Of a stretch of 64,000 bases of DNA, positions 13,467-25,622 are shown piece by piece. The notes under the pieces were generated by a model. It saw only the letters and a program-made list of their open reading frames with translations, had not been told where the DNA came from and did not search any database. The first letter of the stretch is position 1. Each line of letters opens with the position of its first letter. A program made the translations under genes and the position numbers. Source of the DNA: an uncultured Verrucomicrobiota bacterium (GTDB taxonomy: Bacteria; Verrucomicrobiota; Verrucomicrobiia; Limisphaerales; UBA9464); the NCBI GenBank assembly GCA_903907995.1, contig CAIVQH010000057.1:1-64000 (forward strand), in the 5' to 3' direction.

Positions 13467-15350
13467 TCAGATTTCCACCTGCATGCCCAGCTCGACGACG
13501 CGGTTGGCGGGCAGGCGGAAGAAGGCGGTCGCACTCTGTGAGTTGCGGGCCATCACCGCGAACAGATGCCGGCGCCATCCCGGTATCCCCCGGGCCCGGG
13601 TGAGGATGGTCTCCCGGCTCAGGATGAAGGCGGTTTCCAGTTCCTTGAAGGGCAGGCCCTGCTCGCCACACCGCCGCAGCACGGCGGGCACGTCCGGTTC
13701 CTCCATGAAACCGTAGTGGGCCTTCACGCGCCAAAAGCCGTGGCGCAGTTCCTCCACGGTGAGGCGGTCCTCTTCGGCCACGCGGGGGCTTTCCTCGACG
13801 ATCATCGTGAGAAAGACGACGCGCTCGTGCAGCACATGGTTCAGTTTGAGATTGTGGAGGAGGGCGATGGGTGTGCCATCGGAATTGCCGGCCAGATAGA
13901 CGGCGGTGCCCTTCACCCGGGGCGGCTCGCGGCGATCCAGGCTGCTCAGGAACTGATCCGCCGGCAGCGTGCTTTCACGGACGCGCTTCCACAGCAGCTG
14001 CCGGCCGGACTTCCAGGTGGACATCAGGGTGAAGAGGACGGCGCCCACGGCCAGCGGGAACCAGCCGCCATGGAGAATCTTCAAGGCATTCGCTCCGAAA
14101 AATGCCATTTCGATCAGAAACGCGATGCCGCTGACCACCGAGGCCTGCCAGAAGCTCCAGGCCCACAGACGCCGCGCCACGAAGTGGAAGAGCAGGGTCG
14201 TCACCAGCATGGTCAGCGTGACCGCGATGCCGTAGGCGGCGGCGAGGGCCGACGAGGTCTGGAAACCGATCACCAGGGCCACGCAGGCGACCATCAGCGC
14301 CCAGTTCACCTTGGGGATGTAGATCTGGCCGCGCTCATGCTCGCTGGTGTGCTCGATGGCGATGCGAGGCAGGTAACCGAGCTGGACCGCCTGCATCGTG
14401 AGCGAAAACGCGCCGCTGATGAGCGCCTGGGAGGCGATGACGGCCGCCGCCGTGGCCAGGCCGACGAGCGGGTAGAGCGCCCAGGTGGGGGCGAGTTTGT
14501 AGAAAGGGTTTACGGCGGCTTCGGGGCGTTCGATCAGCAGCGCCCCCTGGCCGAGGTAGTTCAGCACCAGGGAGGGCAGCACGAGCGCGAACCACGCAAT
14601 GCGGATGGGCGTTTTGCCGAAGTGGCCCATGTCGGCATAGAGCGCCTCGCCGCCGGTGACGACGAGGAACACCGAGCCGAGCACGACAAAGCCGACCCAG
14701 CCGTTCTCCGCGAAAAAGCGCACGGCGTGCATGGGGTTTAGCGCCCCCAGCACCCGGGGTTCCTGGATGATGCCGCCGACTCCCAGCACGGCGATCTCGA
14801 GGAACCAGACCACCATGATCGGCCCGAAGATTTTCCCGACCGCCCCGGTGCCGGCCCGTTGGCAGGCAAAGAGCCCGATCAGGATCACGGCGGAAATGGG
14901 CACGATGTAGCGCGCCAGCTTGGGCGTGGCGACATCCAGACCCTCGACGGCGCCCAGAACGCTGACGGCCGGCGTGATCATGCCATCGCCGTAGAGCAGG
15001 GCCGCGCCGAAAATGCCCAGCCCGAGCATCACCGCGACCAGTCGGGTGCGGTTGGCTCCCGGCCGCCGTTCGGGAAAGGCCAGCGCCATGAGGGCCAGAA
15101 TGCCGCCTTCGCCCTTGTTGTCCGCCCGGAGGACGAACACCAGGTACATCACCGTCACGATCAGGATCAGCGACCAGAGCAGGAGTGACAGCACGCCGAG
15201 GACGTTTCCCGGCGTAGGATGCACGCCATGTTCGCTGTCGAAACATTCACGCAGGGCGTAGAGCGGGCTGGTGCCGATGTCGCCATAGACCACGCCAAGC
15301 GCCGCCAGAGTCAGCCCGGCCAGGCGGGTACGGCTCAGATCAGTTTTCAT
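13467..15350 (-). CDS. kup: KUP-family potassium uptake transporter
   Basis: A 627-residue proton-coupled K+ importer of normal family length. The ATG at 15350 yields MKTDLSRTRLAGLTLAALGVVYGDIGTSPLYALRECF, the invariant N-terminal signature of Kup. About twelve membrane helices follow, including RADNKGEGGILALMALA, LYGDGMITPAVSVLGAVEG and GGEALYADMGHFGKTPIRIAW. The cytoplasmic C-terminal domain covers roughly the last 170 residues. The 540-base leader on the same strand carries a c-di-AMP riboswitch, which normally turns off potassium import genes when c-di-AMP is high. This gives a coherent picture of K+ control by c-di-AMP. Confidence 0.95.
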   Translation of the reverse strand: MKTDLSRTRLAGLTLAALGVVYGDIGTSPLYALRECFDSEHGVHPTPGNVLGVLSLLLWSLILIVTVMYLVFVLRADNKGEGGILALMALAFPERRPGANRTRLVAVMLGLGIFGAALLYGDGMITPAVSVLGAVEGLDVATPKLARYIVPISAVILIGLFACQRAGTGAVGKIFGPIMVVWFLEIAVLGVGGIIQEPRVLGALNPMHAVRFFAENGWVGFVVLGSVFLVVTGGEALYADMGHFGKTPIRIAWFALVLPSLVLNYLGQGALLIERPEAAVNPFYKLAPTWALYPLVGLATAAAVIASQALISGAFSLTMQAVQLGYLPRIAIEHTSEHERGQIYIPKVNWALMVACVALVIGFQTSSALAAAYGIAVTLTMLVTTLLFHFVARRLWAWSFWQASVVSGIAFLIEMAFFGANALKILHGGWFPLAVGAVLFTLMSTWKSGRQLLWKRVRESTLPADQFLSSLDRREPPRVKGTAVYLAGNSDGTPIALLHNLKLNHVLHERVVFLTMIVEESPRVAEEDRLTVEELRHGFWRVKAHYGFMEEPDVPAVLRRCGEQGLPFKELETAFILSRETILTRARGIPGWRRHLFAVMARNSQSATAFFRLPANRVVELGMQVEI

Positions 15351-15504
15351 GGCAGGGGAGGGAAGAGGCTGGACGGGCAGGAACGCACGGGAGCAGGCGC
15401 GCCCGAAGGCGCGTGGCAAACGCACATGAAGTATTCATCAACACGGTCGGACGCACCGTCGTGAAACAGGCGTCGTCCGTCCGCGTCCGGCGGGTGGGAC
15501 TGCC

Positions 15505-15662
15505 CTTCCAAAGGCCTGCGAGGTTAGCTGTCGGGCTTGGGCTGGAAGTGCCCTTGGCCCGGTTGCCCGGTGCCTTGCGCCCCATCCACCCCGGGTAAGC
15601 GAGGCGGAGAAAGTGGTTTCCCCGTGCCCGGCCTTTGGACTGGCCGGACTTCGGCTGCGGGA
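15505..15662 (-). ncRNA. c-di-AMP riboswitch (ydaO-yuaA type) upstream of kup
   Basis: On the minus strand the leader contains the near-invariant block GACAGCTAACCTCGCAGGC (complement of 15514-15532). It is preceded by CCCAAGCCC and followed by GGAAGGGCAG, as in ydaO RNAs. Upstream conserved pieces GCACGGGGAAACCAC and GGGGTGGATGGGG occur in the expected order. This class binds c-di-AMP and usually controls K+ transporters or cell-wall hydrolases, fitting the kup gene 155 bases downstream. A GCGCC-TTCG-GGCGC hairpin at 15399-15416 lies between aptamer and gene but lacks a U-tract, so the expression platform is unclear. A TTGACA-like -35 (complement of 15689-15694) has no good -10. The remaining 15663-15890 is AT-rich, with no gene seen. 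Confidence 0.88.
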
Positions 15663-15890
15663 CGGAGTCAGTCAAAACTATGGCGTCTTGTCAAATCGCG
15701 CACATTTTTAGAAACAGTGAGTTATGTCGTAAATAATTCATGGTGAACAATTTAAGATGCCATCTTCGGTGGTGATGGCACCGGGCGGATACAGCCGATT
15801 GAAGCCAGAATCCACCGGTACCACCTGTGTCCGTGACAAGTTGGCAAATTCCGCTGGCCTTGCGCGGGTGCGCCCCCATCCTTTCGTTCT

Positions 15891-22600: not shown

Positions 22601-23536
22601 TCACTTCCGGTCCGGCCGTTCGCAGCGCCAGAGCGTGGGCCGGCGGTCCTTGGAATCGGCCACCCGGGGAAACCCGTTGTTGTCCACGATGAGCCAGATG
22701 TTTTTTGCATCGACGGCCAGACCTTCGACGAAGCCGTAGGGGTACGGGTGCGAATAGGCGTTCTCCGGCGAGGTCTCGAGGTCCAGATAGTCATACTGCG
22801 CGAGCACCTTTTTACTGGCCGGGTCCACCCGCAGCACACAGCGGCTCTCCCGGCAGAGCACCCAGAGTTCGCCGTCGAACCAGCTCAGGTCGGAGTAATG
22901 CACGTCCCGGGCGGGCAGGCCGATCGGCGTGACCTGGAAGCTGCCGGTGACCTTCAGGGTGTTGAGATCCACGGTGATGAGGCGGCCAATTTCGCGCTCG
23001 TTGGCGACATAGAGCGTGTCGCCGCCGACGGCGACCCCCTCGAAGCTGGCGTTACGATCCGAACTGAACCACTTCTGGACCGGCTTCCAGTCGATGGCCA
23101 GCGGCTCCACCGTCTTGGTCGCGGGGTCGAACCGCAGAATCCAGCGCTCCGATTCCTCGCTGACGTAAATGCGGCCGCGATCGTCGCGGGCCAGTCCTTC
23201 ACAGTCGTACGGCCCTGATTTCCGGTTGGCGAGGGGGGCAAGTTGCGCCGCAGTGAACGCCTCCGGCAGGGCCACCAAGGCGGCGGTGCCGTTCGTGGCG
23301 AACTCGATGCGGAAGAGGCCCGGGGCCTTGTCGTTGACCGTGAGCAGCGAACCATCCGACTGGAGCAGCAGGGCCGAGGCGTCGAAGCGGCCACGCCCGG
23401 GCGGATTGGGATGCCAAGTCTGGGCCGCTGTGAGGGTGTAACGCGCCGTTTTGGTGCGGGGCGCGGCGCTGACGGGTCTGGCGCACAGGAATCCTGCCAG
23501 TACGGAAAGGAGCAAAGGTTTGAAAACGGCGCGCAC
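22601..23536 (-). CDS. secreted beta-propeller protein (phytase-esterase-like/SdiA-regulated-like)
   Basis: A 311-residue protein starting at GTG 23536, with a signal peptide (FKPLLLSVLAGFLCARPVSAA). Repeated blades are visible, each with a conserved turn: DASALLLQSDGSLLTVND, YDCEGLARDDRGRIYVSEES, SFEGVAVGGDTLYVANE and YGFVEGLAVDAKNIWLIVDNNG. The CEGLA/FEGVA/VEGLA repeats are typical of the esterase-like phytase and SdiA-regulated propeller families. Catalysis is not certain; it may be a secreted or periplasmic phosphoesterase or a binding propeller. It converges on the RRM gene. Confidence 0.68.
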   Translation of the reverse strand: MRAVFKPLLLSVLAGFLCARPVSAAPRTKTARYTLTAAQTWHPNPPGRGRFDASALLLQSDGSLLTVNDKAPGLFRIEFATNGTAALVALPEAFTAAQLAPLANRKSGPYDCEGLARDDRGRIYVSEESERWILRFDPATKTVEPLAIDWKPVQKWFSSDRNASFEGVAVGGDTLYVANEREIGRLITVDLNTLKVTGSFQVTPIGLPARDVHYSDLSWFDGELWVLCRESRCVLRVDPASKKVLAQYDYLDLETSPENAYSHPYPYGFVEGLAVDAKNIWLIVDNNGFPRVADSKDRRPTLWRCERPDRK

Positions 23537-23652
23537 GCGTGTTTCTAGTCGCGTTCCCTAGACTGGAACAAGGGCTCTGGTGGAAAAAACCCGTTTACTC
23601 CCACGGCCCGATTGTTACGTTGCCGACACACACAGACCTCGCGGTTTGTCCT

Positions 23653-23871
23653 ATGGGAAATGAATCCGATCAGAAGCGCGAGGCGCGCGCGCTCTTGTTG
23701 AACACGACACTCTATCGGGAGTTCCAGGCGGAGAAGGAAGAGATCCTGAAGCACAAATGGATCGAATCCGAGAAGGCCGGTTTTGACATCGGCTTTGAAC
23801 GCGCCCTGGTTGACTGGATAACCCACCACCGGGCCGGCTGGCGCCGGGCCCGTCAGCAGGCGACAGCATGA
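23653..23871 (+). CDS. small conserved hypothetical protein
   Basis: A 72-residue charged, probably helical cytoplasmic protein: [21 protein letters not shown]..., ending [36 protein letters not shown]. The [27 protein letters not shown] segment looks like a widely conserved short bacterial family, but I cannot name a function. The ATG at 23653 is chosen over upstream in-frame codons because conservation begins there. No signal peptide or metal motif is present. It is followed by the pyr attenuator. Confidence 0.65.
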
Positions 23872-23901
23872 ACTGATCGCCACCTACGGCACCTTTAAGC
23901 T

Positions 23902-23989
23902 GCCGGCCTGCGAGCCGGCCAAGGCGCATGAATCAACTGCATATTCCAACTCAGTGGCCGGCTCCCTCTGTGGGGCCGGCTTTTCTTTT
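23902..23989 (+). promoter_or_regulatory. PyrR-type transcription attenuator
   Basis: Three alternative pairings are visible. The anti-antiterminator is GCCGGC (23902-23907) with GCCGGC (23914-23919) around a CTGCGA loop; it continues into CCAAGG, resembling the PyrR-binding loop. The antiterminator is GAGCCGGCC (23912-23920), an exact 9-base complement of GGCCGGCTC (23956-23964). The terminator is GCCGGC (23957-23962) with GCCGGC (23975-23980), followed by TTTTCTTTT. PyrR plus UMP should favour termination before pyrR. Confidence 0.75.
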
Positions 23990-23995
23990 CCCCGC

Positions 23996-24526
23996 ATGAG
24001 CGCCGTCATTCTCGACGCCTCCACCCTGGCCCGCACCCTGACGCGCATCGCCCACGAAATTGCGGAGCGCAACGTGCCCGGCACCGACGTCGTGCTGGTG
24101 GGCATCCAGCGCGGCGGGGCCAGCCTCGCCCGGCGGCTGGGGCCGCTGCTGGACCGCATTGTCGGCCATCCGGTGCCCGTCGGGGTACTGGATGTCACGA
24201 TGCACCGGGATGACCTGGACTGGCGTTCGCTGCCGGAACTGCGGCTCACGGAGATTCCCGGCGACATTTCCGGCAAGACCGTCGTGCTGGTGGACGATGT
24301 GATCTTCAAGGGCCGCACCATCCGCGCCGCCCTGGATGCCCTGCACCATCTGGGACGCCCCCGCCGCGTGCAGCTGGCCGTGCTGGTGGACCGCGGCCAT
24401 CGCGAACTGCCCATCCGCCCCGATTTTGTCGGCAAAAACGTGCCCACCTCGCTGGCCCAGCGCATCAAGCTGCGGCTGACGGAGGACGGGGGCGACGACA
24501 CCGTGATTTTGGAGGAGGCGAAATGA
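23996..24526 (+). CDS. pyrR: bifunctional pyr operon regulator / uracil phosphoribosyltransferase PyrR
   Basis: A 176-residue protein of normal PyrR length, with ATG at 23996 six bases after the attenuator U-tract. The PRPP-binding motif is [14 protein letters not shown] at 96-109. [25 protein letters not shown] and [22 protein letters not shown] are also diagnostic. PyrR senses UMP and binds the leader RNA to cause termination; most also have weak uracil phosphoribosyltransferase activity. It precedes pyrB by 160 bases, a gap filled by a hexamer-word repeat. Confidence 0.95.
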
Positions 24527-24535
24527 AGCGCGAGT

Positions 24536-24623
24536 GTCGCATTCTTAATCATAATCGTAATCTTAATCTTCACCGCGAAGCACGGGTGATTATGAGTAAG
24601 ATTTCGATTAAGATTAAGACACC
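24536..24623. repeat. hexamer-word inverted repeat between pyrR and pyrB
   Basis: The left arm (24541-24571) is pyrimidine-rich TTAATC/ATAATC/GTAATC words. The right arm (24587-24620) is GATTAT, GAGTAA, GATTTC, GATTAA and GATTAAG words. The arms pair at word level. AT content is far above the flanking genes. Confidence 0.75.
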
Positions 24624-24686: not shown

Positions 24687-25622
24687 ATGACCTGGAATCG
24701 CAGCCATCTGCTCGACCTGCAGTCGCTCTCCGTCGCGGAGCTGACCGCCATCCTCGACACCGCCCGGGCGTTCAAGGCCATCAACGAGCGCTCGATCAAG
24801 CGCGTGCCACCACTGCGCGGCAAGACCGTGGTCAACCTGTTCGTCGAACCGAGCACGCGCACGCGCATCAGCTTTGAACTGGCGGCGCTGCGGCTCAGTG
24901 CCGACGTGATCAATTTTTCCGCCGAGGCCAGCTCGCTCAAGAAGGGTGAGACCCTGCGCGACACGGTCCGGAACCTTGAATCGCTGAACGCCGACATCAT
25001 CATCCTTCGCCACGGCGCCAGCGGCGCGCCGCACTATCTCGCGCGGTTTGCGCGGGCGCATATCATCAACGCGGGCGACGGCGCGCACGAGCATCCCACC
25101 CAGGGCCTGCTCGACACCTTCACCATCCGTGAGCGCAAGGGGCGCGTGGCCGGGCTGAACGTCACGATCCTCGGTGACATCCTCTACAGCCGCGTCGCGC
25201 GGTCGAACATCTGGGCCCTGCTCAAGCTGGGGGCCAACGTCACCCTCTGCGGTCCCCCCACGCTCGTGCCGAAGGTGTTCGAGCGGTTTGGCTGCCGCGT
25301 CATCTGGGACCTGCAGGAGGCGTTGAAGGACGCCGACGTGGTGAACCTGCTCCGCATCCAGCACGAGCGCCAGCGGGTGACGATGTTCCCCAGCCTGGGC
25401 GAATACACCGCGCTCTTCGGCCTCAATCAGGCGCGCATGAAATGGGTCAAGCCCGACGCGCTCATCATGCACCCGGGCCCGATCAACCGGGGCGTGGAAC
25501 TGGAGGGCGACATCGCGGACGGGGCCCAGTCGGTGATCCTGGAGCAGGTCACCAACGGTCTCGCCGTGCGCATGGCCGTGCTCTTCCTGGTCAACGGCGG
25601 CAAGGCGGCGGAGTTGAACTGA
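24687..25622 (+). CDS. pyrB: aspartate carbamoyltransferase catalytic subunit
   Basis: A 311-residue enzyme joining carbamoyl phosphate and aspartate in pyrimidine synthesis. The carbamoyl-phosphate site FVEPSTRTRISFE (STRTR at 56-60), SLKKGETLRDT, RHGASGAPHYLA, NAGDGAHEHPTQGLLDTFTI and MHPGPINRGVEL are all present. The ATG at 24687 matches the family N-terminus (LLDLQSLSVAELTAILDTA). It belongs with pyrR in a PyrR-controlled unit. No pyrC or pyrI follows; the gene ends at a bidirectional terminator facing trxA. Confidence 0.96.
   Translation: MTWNRSHLLDLQSLSVAELTAILDTARAFKAINERSIKRVPPLRGKTVVNLFVEPSTRTRISFELAALRLSADVINFSAEASSLKKGETLRDTVRNLESLNADIIILRHGASGAPHYLARFARAHIINAGDGAHEHPTQGLLDTFTIRERKGRVAGLNVTILGDILYSRVARSNIWALLKLGANVTLCGPPTLVPKVFERFGCRVIWDLQEALKDADVVNLLRIQHERQRVTMFPSLGEYTALFGLNQARMKWVKPDALIMHPGPINRGVELEGDIADGAQSVILEQVTNGLAVRMAVLFLVNGGKAAELN

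Follow-up and report, generated by a model that had tools for sequence, protein, structure and literature searches.

A probable PyrR-controlled, ribosome-coupled attenuator upstream of pyrR and pyrB in an uncultured Verrucomicrobiota bacterium

PyrR is the textbook protein that switches an RNA leader between a terminator and an antiterminator. In the trp and his leader-peptide attenuators, it is a ribosome on a short leader open reading frame (ORF) that decides the fate of the terminator. A leader in Thermus strain ZO5, described by Van de Casteele et al. in 1997, reportedly has pyrR as its first gene and attenuates without an antiterminator; a translating ribosome is said to have been proposed there as the agent that prevents the terminator. 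In mycobacteria, Fields and Switzer reportedly described in 2007 a translational repression by PyrR, in which the AAGG of the binding loop is the ribosome site of pyrR itself.

The review PMC7430163 describes three PyrR attenuators in one operon of Bacillus subtilis. A comparison based on the Rfam family RF00515 (PMC3766115) covered 255 genomes in 24 lineages, and the term 'Verrucomicrobia' does not occur in its main text. The authors of PMC2965389 state that, an atypical ermC leader aside, leader-peptide systems were known to them only in Proteobacteria and Actinobacteria. That paper adds one such system in Firmicutes, and its main text is without the string 'Verrucomicrobi'. A search of open-licence papers returned, in the titles and abstract openings among the matches listed, no PyrR control in Verrucomicrobiota and no PyrR leader ORF, and no paper in that literature was found to combine 'PyrR' with 'Verrucomicrobiota'.

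The window analysed here is a stretch of 64,000 nucleotides from the 5.1-Mb genome of an uncultured member of the phylum Verrucomicrobiota. Its pyrR gene is preceded by a loop of the PyrR-binding kind, by a leader ORF whose position is conserved in relatives, and by a predicted terminator. Taken together, these sequence features make it probable that pyrR and pyrB stand behind a PyrR-controlled, ribosome-coupled attenuator. The features are as follows.

23889 to 23927, + strand: putative PyrR binding loop, identified by its sequence, its predicted fold, a strict search pattern and covariation in relatives.
23912 to 23921, + strand: possible 5' strand of an antiterminator, an exact 10-bp complement of 23955 to 23964.
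23921 to 23924, + strand: AAGG, the 3' arm of the lower stem of the loop and a Shine-Dalgarno-like site of the leader ORF, as the start codons of relatives suggest.
23928 to 23999, + strand: leader ORF of 23 codons, identified by translation and by a placement kept in relatives.
23955 to 23964, + strand: possible 3' strand of the antiterminator, overlapping the 5' arm of the terminator, identified by complementarity and folding.
23956 to 23989, + strand: predicted intrinsic terminator (hairpin 23956 to 23981) with its U-run, inside the leader ORF, identified by sequence, scan and folding.
23996 to 24526, + strand: pyrR, 176 amino acids, the PyrR bifunctional regulator/uracil phosphoribosyltransferase, identified by NF003549 and PyrR chains of the PDB.
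24687 to 25622, + strand: pyrB, aspartate carbamoyltransferase, identified by NF002032 (400.9 bits).

The first-pass annotation had placed an attenuator at 23902 to 23989, directly before pyrR. The position is upheld, as the gene that starts at 23996 matches NCBIfam NF003549 with 225.3 bits, over the curated equivalog cut-off of 138. Four sister PyrR models also match the protein, each under its own cut-off, and PyrR chains of the PDB align with it at a best E value of 3.3e-55. The nearest named record, a protein with 98% identity, is found in the metagenome-assembled genome CAIXUG01 (uncultured Verrucomicrobia bacterium). The residues of B. subtilis PyrR that we take to be implicated in RNA binding are T18, R19, H22, H140, R141, R146 and K152. 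The protein of the window contains TRIAH, and its T16, R17, H20, H135, R136 and K147 are invariant across six aligned PyrR sequences; the equivalent of R146 is K in one of the six (locus L029). These equivalent residues may alternatively be kept for catalysis. The pyrB gene is presumably the second gene of the pyrR operon. Between the two genes, at 24534 to 24622, lies an imperfect 35-nucleotide inverted repeat of TAATC units. The sequence CTTAATCNTAATCNTAATC is matched 16 times in the genome, several times as facing pairs, and never in a reversed control; it is a dispersed hairpin repeat family.

The putative binding loop has an upper stem GCCGGC/GCCGGC that carries a hexaloop, CUGCGA, which fits CNGNGA and is closed by a C-G pair. 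The lower stem comprises CCUU/AAGG plus GC/GC, with an internal UAA, so that the 5' half includes CCUUUAA. The predicted fold has an energy of -15.7 kcal/mol. A strict pattern built on the loop matches the 5.1-Mb genome once, at pyrR, and nowhere in a reversed-pattern control; no second strict loop was found elsewhere in the genome. A looser pattern gives one genome match against 1+1 in controls. The resemblance to a PyrR-binding loop noted in the first-pass annotation thus holds, although the span given there took in the terminator and the AAGG half of the loop and overlooked both the CCUUUAA half, upstream of 23902, and the leader ORF. In comparison with the printed core ARUCCAGAGAGGYU, the CNGNGAG part of the loop alone matches, and the stem letters differ.

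The upper stem covaries in relatives. The evidence comes from 85 distinct 36-base windows around loops of 29 bases, the size seen in 91 of 108 loop-bearing loci; the 31-base loop of the window, found among those loci in L003 and L004 only, was left out. Pair 2 is formed in 84 of the 85 loops (shuffle mean 70.7, maximum 76), pair 3 in 82 (69.0, 76), pair 4 in 74 (46.3, 56) and pair 5 in all 85 (80.2, 82). No evidence of covariation comes from pairs 1 and 6 or from the invariant lower stem of these loops. TTTA, CNGNGA and AAGG were demanded by the search and are invariant in the 85 loops by construction, but the CC before TTTAA and the last A of TTTAA were free in the search and are likewise invariant (85 of 85). 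Across the order, the strict pattern is present in 127 of 255 genomes, spread over 51 of 117 genera; a few extra matches (for example, G356, G387 C43 and G515 C489) resemble chance. A loose pattern tried for this count gave many control matches and was dropped in favor of the stricter one.

The Rfam PyrR family RF00515, a search against which had been suggested as a check in the first-pass annotation, has no match in the window or at the locus at its gathering cut-off of 54 bits. Whole-genome search with this model returned two matches elsewhere (E about 3.9), under the cut-off, and the sRNA and miRNA families of Rfam that matched at the locus (best Hrs13 and Xoo2) were all under their cut-offs. 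The cut-off of RF00515 is reached by four of five Firmicutes loci versus one of 15 Verrucomicrobiota loci (L029). The model therefore misses most of the Verrucomicrobiota sites tried (14 of 15). Elsewhere in the window, a c-di-AMP riboswitch (RF00379, 52.6 bits) is located at 15498 to 15666 on the minus strand. It is followed by an ORF at 13467 to 15425 (minus strand) with likeness to KUP-type potassium transporters, named from a reading of the sequence alone.

A small gene at 23653 to 23871, with a weak likeness to DUF4032 (22.6 bits, under the cut-off of 23.8), ends 17 nucleotides before the loop. The hairpin before pyrR could be the terminator of this gene, with PyrR merely a phosphoribosyltransferase, and the short distance and the lack of a promoter-like site in 23300 to 24100 are consistent with that. 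This explanation is very improbable, given that the binding loop is complete and its upper stem covaries among relatives, that the genome's one strict match is at pyrR, and that the protein keeps motifs common to the PyrR proteins of loop-bearing Firmicutes and Actinobacteria. In several relatives the leader is preceded, as judged by eye, by apparently the same gene end, and the attenuator may therefore be located within an operon.

The leader ORF starts three nucleotides after the AAGG of the loop, reads through the terminator and its U-run, and stops at a TGA (23997 to 23999) within ATGA, giving a four-nucleotide overlap with the ATG of pyrR. We infer that AAGG is the ribosome site of this ORF; the genome contains a 16S rRNA 3' end with CCTCC. 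The three-nucleotide gap between AAGG and ATG is short and was counted against a role of the ribosome, and the lack of a promoter-like site was weighed against the ribosome-coupled reading as well. Furthermore, the presence of AAGG is in itself no sign of a ribosome site, because the search motif demands it and Firmicutes loops also have it. The loop ends 71 nucleotides upstream of the pyrR start, leaving the ribosome site of pyrR uncovered, in contrast to the mycobacterial type.

The placement of the leader ORF was compared across the order, in which 220 of 255 genomes have a PyrR match (the listed genomes G348, G379, G412, G476 and G499 were left out). The set comprises 151 stretches upstream of pyrR, each locus being given an L-number. 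It is not a random sample, as it combines 30 loci, 21 loci, and 100 chosen among the matches listed. A strict loop is present in 108 stretches. Of these, 104 were retained, all different from one another and with 40 or more nucleotides between loop and pyrR; L004 (identical to L003), L272 and L273 (loop seven nucleotides from pyrR) and L156 (pyrR 352 nucleotides off) were dropped. The 43 stretches that have no strict loop include two with short upstream DNA (L209, 59 nucleotides; L259, 304 nucleotides) and four (L006, L014, L201 and L247) in which a relaxed scan reveals a degenerate loop accompanied by a leader ORF. The leader of L005 was noticed by eye and then checked.

All 104 leaders have a start codon 2 to 9 nucleotides after AAGG (ATG in 97, GTG in 7); shuffled stretches show this placement in a mean of 14.2 and a maximum of 24 cases over 200 trials. 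In 89 of the 104 leaders the end of the ORF falls from -7 to +26 relative to the pyrR start, with 53 leaders at +8 and 10 at +4. Fully shuffled stretches reach this end placement in a mean of 3.8 and a maximum of 9 cases, and the other two reading frames reach the zone in 5 and 20. When the start is kept and the rest is shuffled, the mean rises to 58.5 and the maximum to 68, because GC-rich DNA has few stops, and the placement of the stop is therefore only a moderate signal when taken alone. The shuffles leave shared descent in the counts, and the pyrR start codons are computed ones. The 89 leaders range from 19 to 99 codons, and the junction with pyrR is kept. By families, with labels assigned by hand, the loop occurs in 28 of 38 and the leader is in place in 25 of these 28. 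Within the genus of the window, the four-nucleotide overlap is present in seven of eight genomes (L003 to L009).

The rule on leader ends is broken by 15 of the 104 leaders. L010, L159, L207 and L234 are fused in frame to pyrR or have no stop in the fetched stretch. Early stops occur in L015, L150, L153, L208, L217, L244, L249, L276 and L280, and late stops in L238 and L256; L153 also contains another start, which fits. In L010, which belongs to the genus of the window, and in L159, the leader start opens ORFs of 196 and 214 codons that end about 530 nucleotides into pyrR. These might encode an N-terminally extended PyrR; alternately, the separate leader has been lost. In L208 and L217 the leader has six codons and ends far short of the U-run, and the loop pairs strongly with the terminator; these two loci may have reverted to an antiterminator.

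Stops that overlap pyrR at +8 are commoner in loci with the loop (68 of 108) than in those lacking it (15 of 43), kinship still being included in these counts. The overlap at +4 is not commoner with the loop (15 of 108 versus 12 of 43). A ribosome site of its own precedes pyrR in 2 of 55 leaders with loop and terminator, in 10 of 49 with loop and no terminator, and in 5 of 43 without loop. Since leaders without the loop also rarely have such a site, its scarcity in terminator leaders proves little.

The predicted terminator, also described in the first-pass annotation, is borne out. Its hairpin has 10 pairs and a predicted energy of -19.9 kcal/mol, and is followed by the U-run TTTTCTTTT, with 8 T per 9 bases, which ends at 23989, six bases from the start of pyrR. 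A consensus scan of 23300 to 24100 yields three terminator-like sites, compared with a shuffle mean of 0.8. Among the 104 leaders, 55 have a predicted terminator, and in 51 of these 55 the leader ORF reads past the start of the U-run (in two of the 51, L207 and L234, no stop occurs in the fetched stretch). The genus of the window has detected terminators in L003 and L004 only, and none in its six other genomes. Perhaps control is translational only, with PyrR blocking the leader ORF and the coupled translation of pyrR, and with a hairpin and U-run that are not a working terminator. This would suit the 42 of 104 leaders that have the ORF in place and no detected terminator, as well as the seven Verrucomicrobiota loci, listed below, with the loop at the pyrR start. 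The strong hairpin and T-rich tract of the window argue against it, as do the terminators predicted in so many non-identical leaders, and we regard translation-only control as quite improbable.

A second alternative is a switch of the Bacillus type, in which the strands at 23912 to 23921 and 23955 to 23964 form an antiterminator that competes with the terminator. PyrR with UMP would stabilize the loop, and hence the terminator, and the leader ORF would be incidental. As a prediction from this window's letters, such a switch is a good one. The exact antiterminator of the first-pass annotation is present and energetically feasible, but its length is 10 bp rather than nine. The antiterminator form (-40.2 kcal/mol) and the form with loop and terminator (-38.3 kcal/mol) have near-equal energies, the former being better by 1.9, and predicted folds of the nascent RNA up to 23966 favor the antiterminator. 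The pairing itself (-23.0 kcal/mol, percentile 0.01) is the strongest among the 55 leaders with terminators. The six-codon leaders L208 and L217 also rank high (percentiles 0.04 and 0.05 in a narrow window, 0.15 and 0.03 in a wide one), so that each of the two devices may take the other's place.

Over the set of relatives, however, the pairing signal is absent. In the 55 leaders, the loop and terminator arms of the same leader pair with -11.8 kcal/mol versus -11.5 for mismatched arms (median percentile 0.44), and a wider window (n = 57) gives -13.2 versus -12.9 kcal/mol (median percentile 0.46). In contrast, 13 Firmicutes leaders analyzed with the wide window give -21.7 for cognate and -18.2 kcal/mol for mismatched arms (percentile 0.21); these are what remains of 18 after removal of three without a strict loop and two without a detected terminator. 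Lack of covariation between the competing stems, which the first-pass annotation had itself named as evidence against its proposal, is what the 55 leaders present, and it goes against the antiterminator. Selection among relatives to keep an antiterminator is therefore not apparent in these predicted pairings. Such pairing also arises easily, because the self-complementary hexamer GCCGGC is found at four places in the leader; by chance, about one in two sets of 55 leaders is expected to hold a 1% case. The six genomes of the genus other than L003 and L004 are a further point against the Bacillus type, as no terminator was detected in them. We consider this alternative unlikely, but the antiterminator of this genome may be a real local gain. 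Thus, what stands of the attenuator originally proposed is a PyrR leader with its loop in Verrucomicrobiota, and it is doubtful that the Bacillus pair of terminator and antiterminator is its working switch.

For the ribosome-coupled attenuator, which we prefer, we infer a course of events that runs from PyrR binding and ribosome entry to coupling, handover and a nucleotide response. When pyrimidine nucleotides are plentiful, PyrR with UMP or UTP would hold the binding loop closed. The closed loop would bury AAGG and keep ribosomes from the leader ORF, and without a ribosome on this ORF the terminator would fold and transcription would end before pyrR and pyrB. Any transcript that escaped would be translated poorly, since pyrR lacks an evident ribosome site of its own and would depend on a ribosome delivered to the ATGA. 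When pyrimidines are scarce, PyrR would leave and a ribosome could start at 23928. By running through the terminator it would block folding of the hairpin, and it would then end at the TGA and restart at the overlapping ATG of pyrR. The antiterminator of this genome may keep the terminator from forming while the ribosome is still on its way. By bridging this wait it would make the ribosome-coupled and Bacillus-type readings overlap, and the probabilities that we attach to the two overlap as well, since leader ORF and antiterminator may both be at work here.

Loci outside the order reveal other placements of the loop. The TTTA..CNGNGA..AAGG motif precedes pyrR in 15 of 18 loci from Firmicutes, in 9 of 11 from Actinobacteria and in 9 of 11 from other phyla. 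Under the same rule, none of the 15 Firmicutes loops has a leader ORF; a start codon in the leader position occurs in 8 of the 15, and L066 fits if an alternative pyrR start is taken. In all nine Actinobacteria the loop is located at the pyrR start itself, with AAGG 9 to 24 nucleotides from it. Three of the nine other-phylum loops have a leader ORF, namely both loop-bearing Omnitrophota loci and one Nitrospina locus (L072, L102 and L107). Within Verrucomicrobiota, seven loci (L105, L114 to L117, L272 and L273) have the loop at the pyrR start, an apparent Actinobacteria-like translational repression when judged by analogy. In a sample of the phylum, 117 of 288 genomes encode a PyrR-like protein (threshold 1e-30), and among 29 further loci the loop is found in four, always at the pyrR start.

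From these distributions we lean toward a broader reading. PyrR of Verrucomicrobiota, and perhaps that of Omnitrophota and Nitrospina (three loci), would be the gatekeeper of a sequence-free leader ORF of 19 to 99 codons that carries a ribosome through a terminator to pyrR, so that one protein-RNA contact controls both transcription and translation. All that is conserved in this leader would be where it starts, next to the PyrR loop, and where it stops, on the start codon of pyrR. Lineages would shift between the leader form, a bare translational form and possibly an antiterminator form, and the loop would stay constant.

The locus resembles the attenuators of B. subtilis, as described in PMC7430163, in its PyrR, in a loop with a CNGNGAG core and in a terminator before pyrR, and an antiterminator is possible in the window as well. 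It differs in having one strict site in the genome, a leader ORF, and an antiterminator that is not conserved. In mycobacteria and in the nine Actinobacteria loops the ribosome site within the loop belongs to pyrR, whereas in the window it would belong to the leader ORF, and a terminator is added. Unlike in trp and his leaders, the sequence and length of the leader vary widely, so no regulatory codons are apparent, and the signal here would be a permission for the ribosome to start, decided by a protein. The likeness to Thermus ZO5, as that system is reported, is a ribosome-read leader that keeps the terminator open, compared here by description. The Thermus type reportedly consists of a leader ORF that begins at the loop and is read through the terminator, and this is the arrangement found here. 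The conservation in 25 families, the variable leader length and the overlap of stop and start are observations on the present order alone. We therefore view the locus not as a new system but as a ribosome-coupled form of PyrR regulation, here supported by comparison, and it suggests comparative support, in an unrelated phylum, for the proposal reportedly made for Thermus in 1997. The leaders suggest that the same PyrR and the same loop are wired to three outputs across phyla: an antiterminator, ribosome entry at a leader ORF, and ribosome entry at pyrR.
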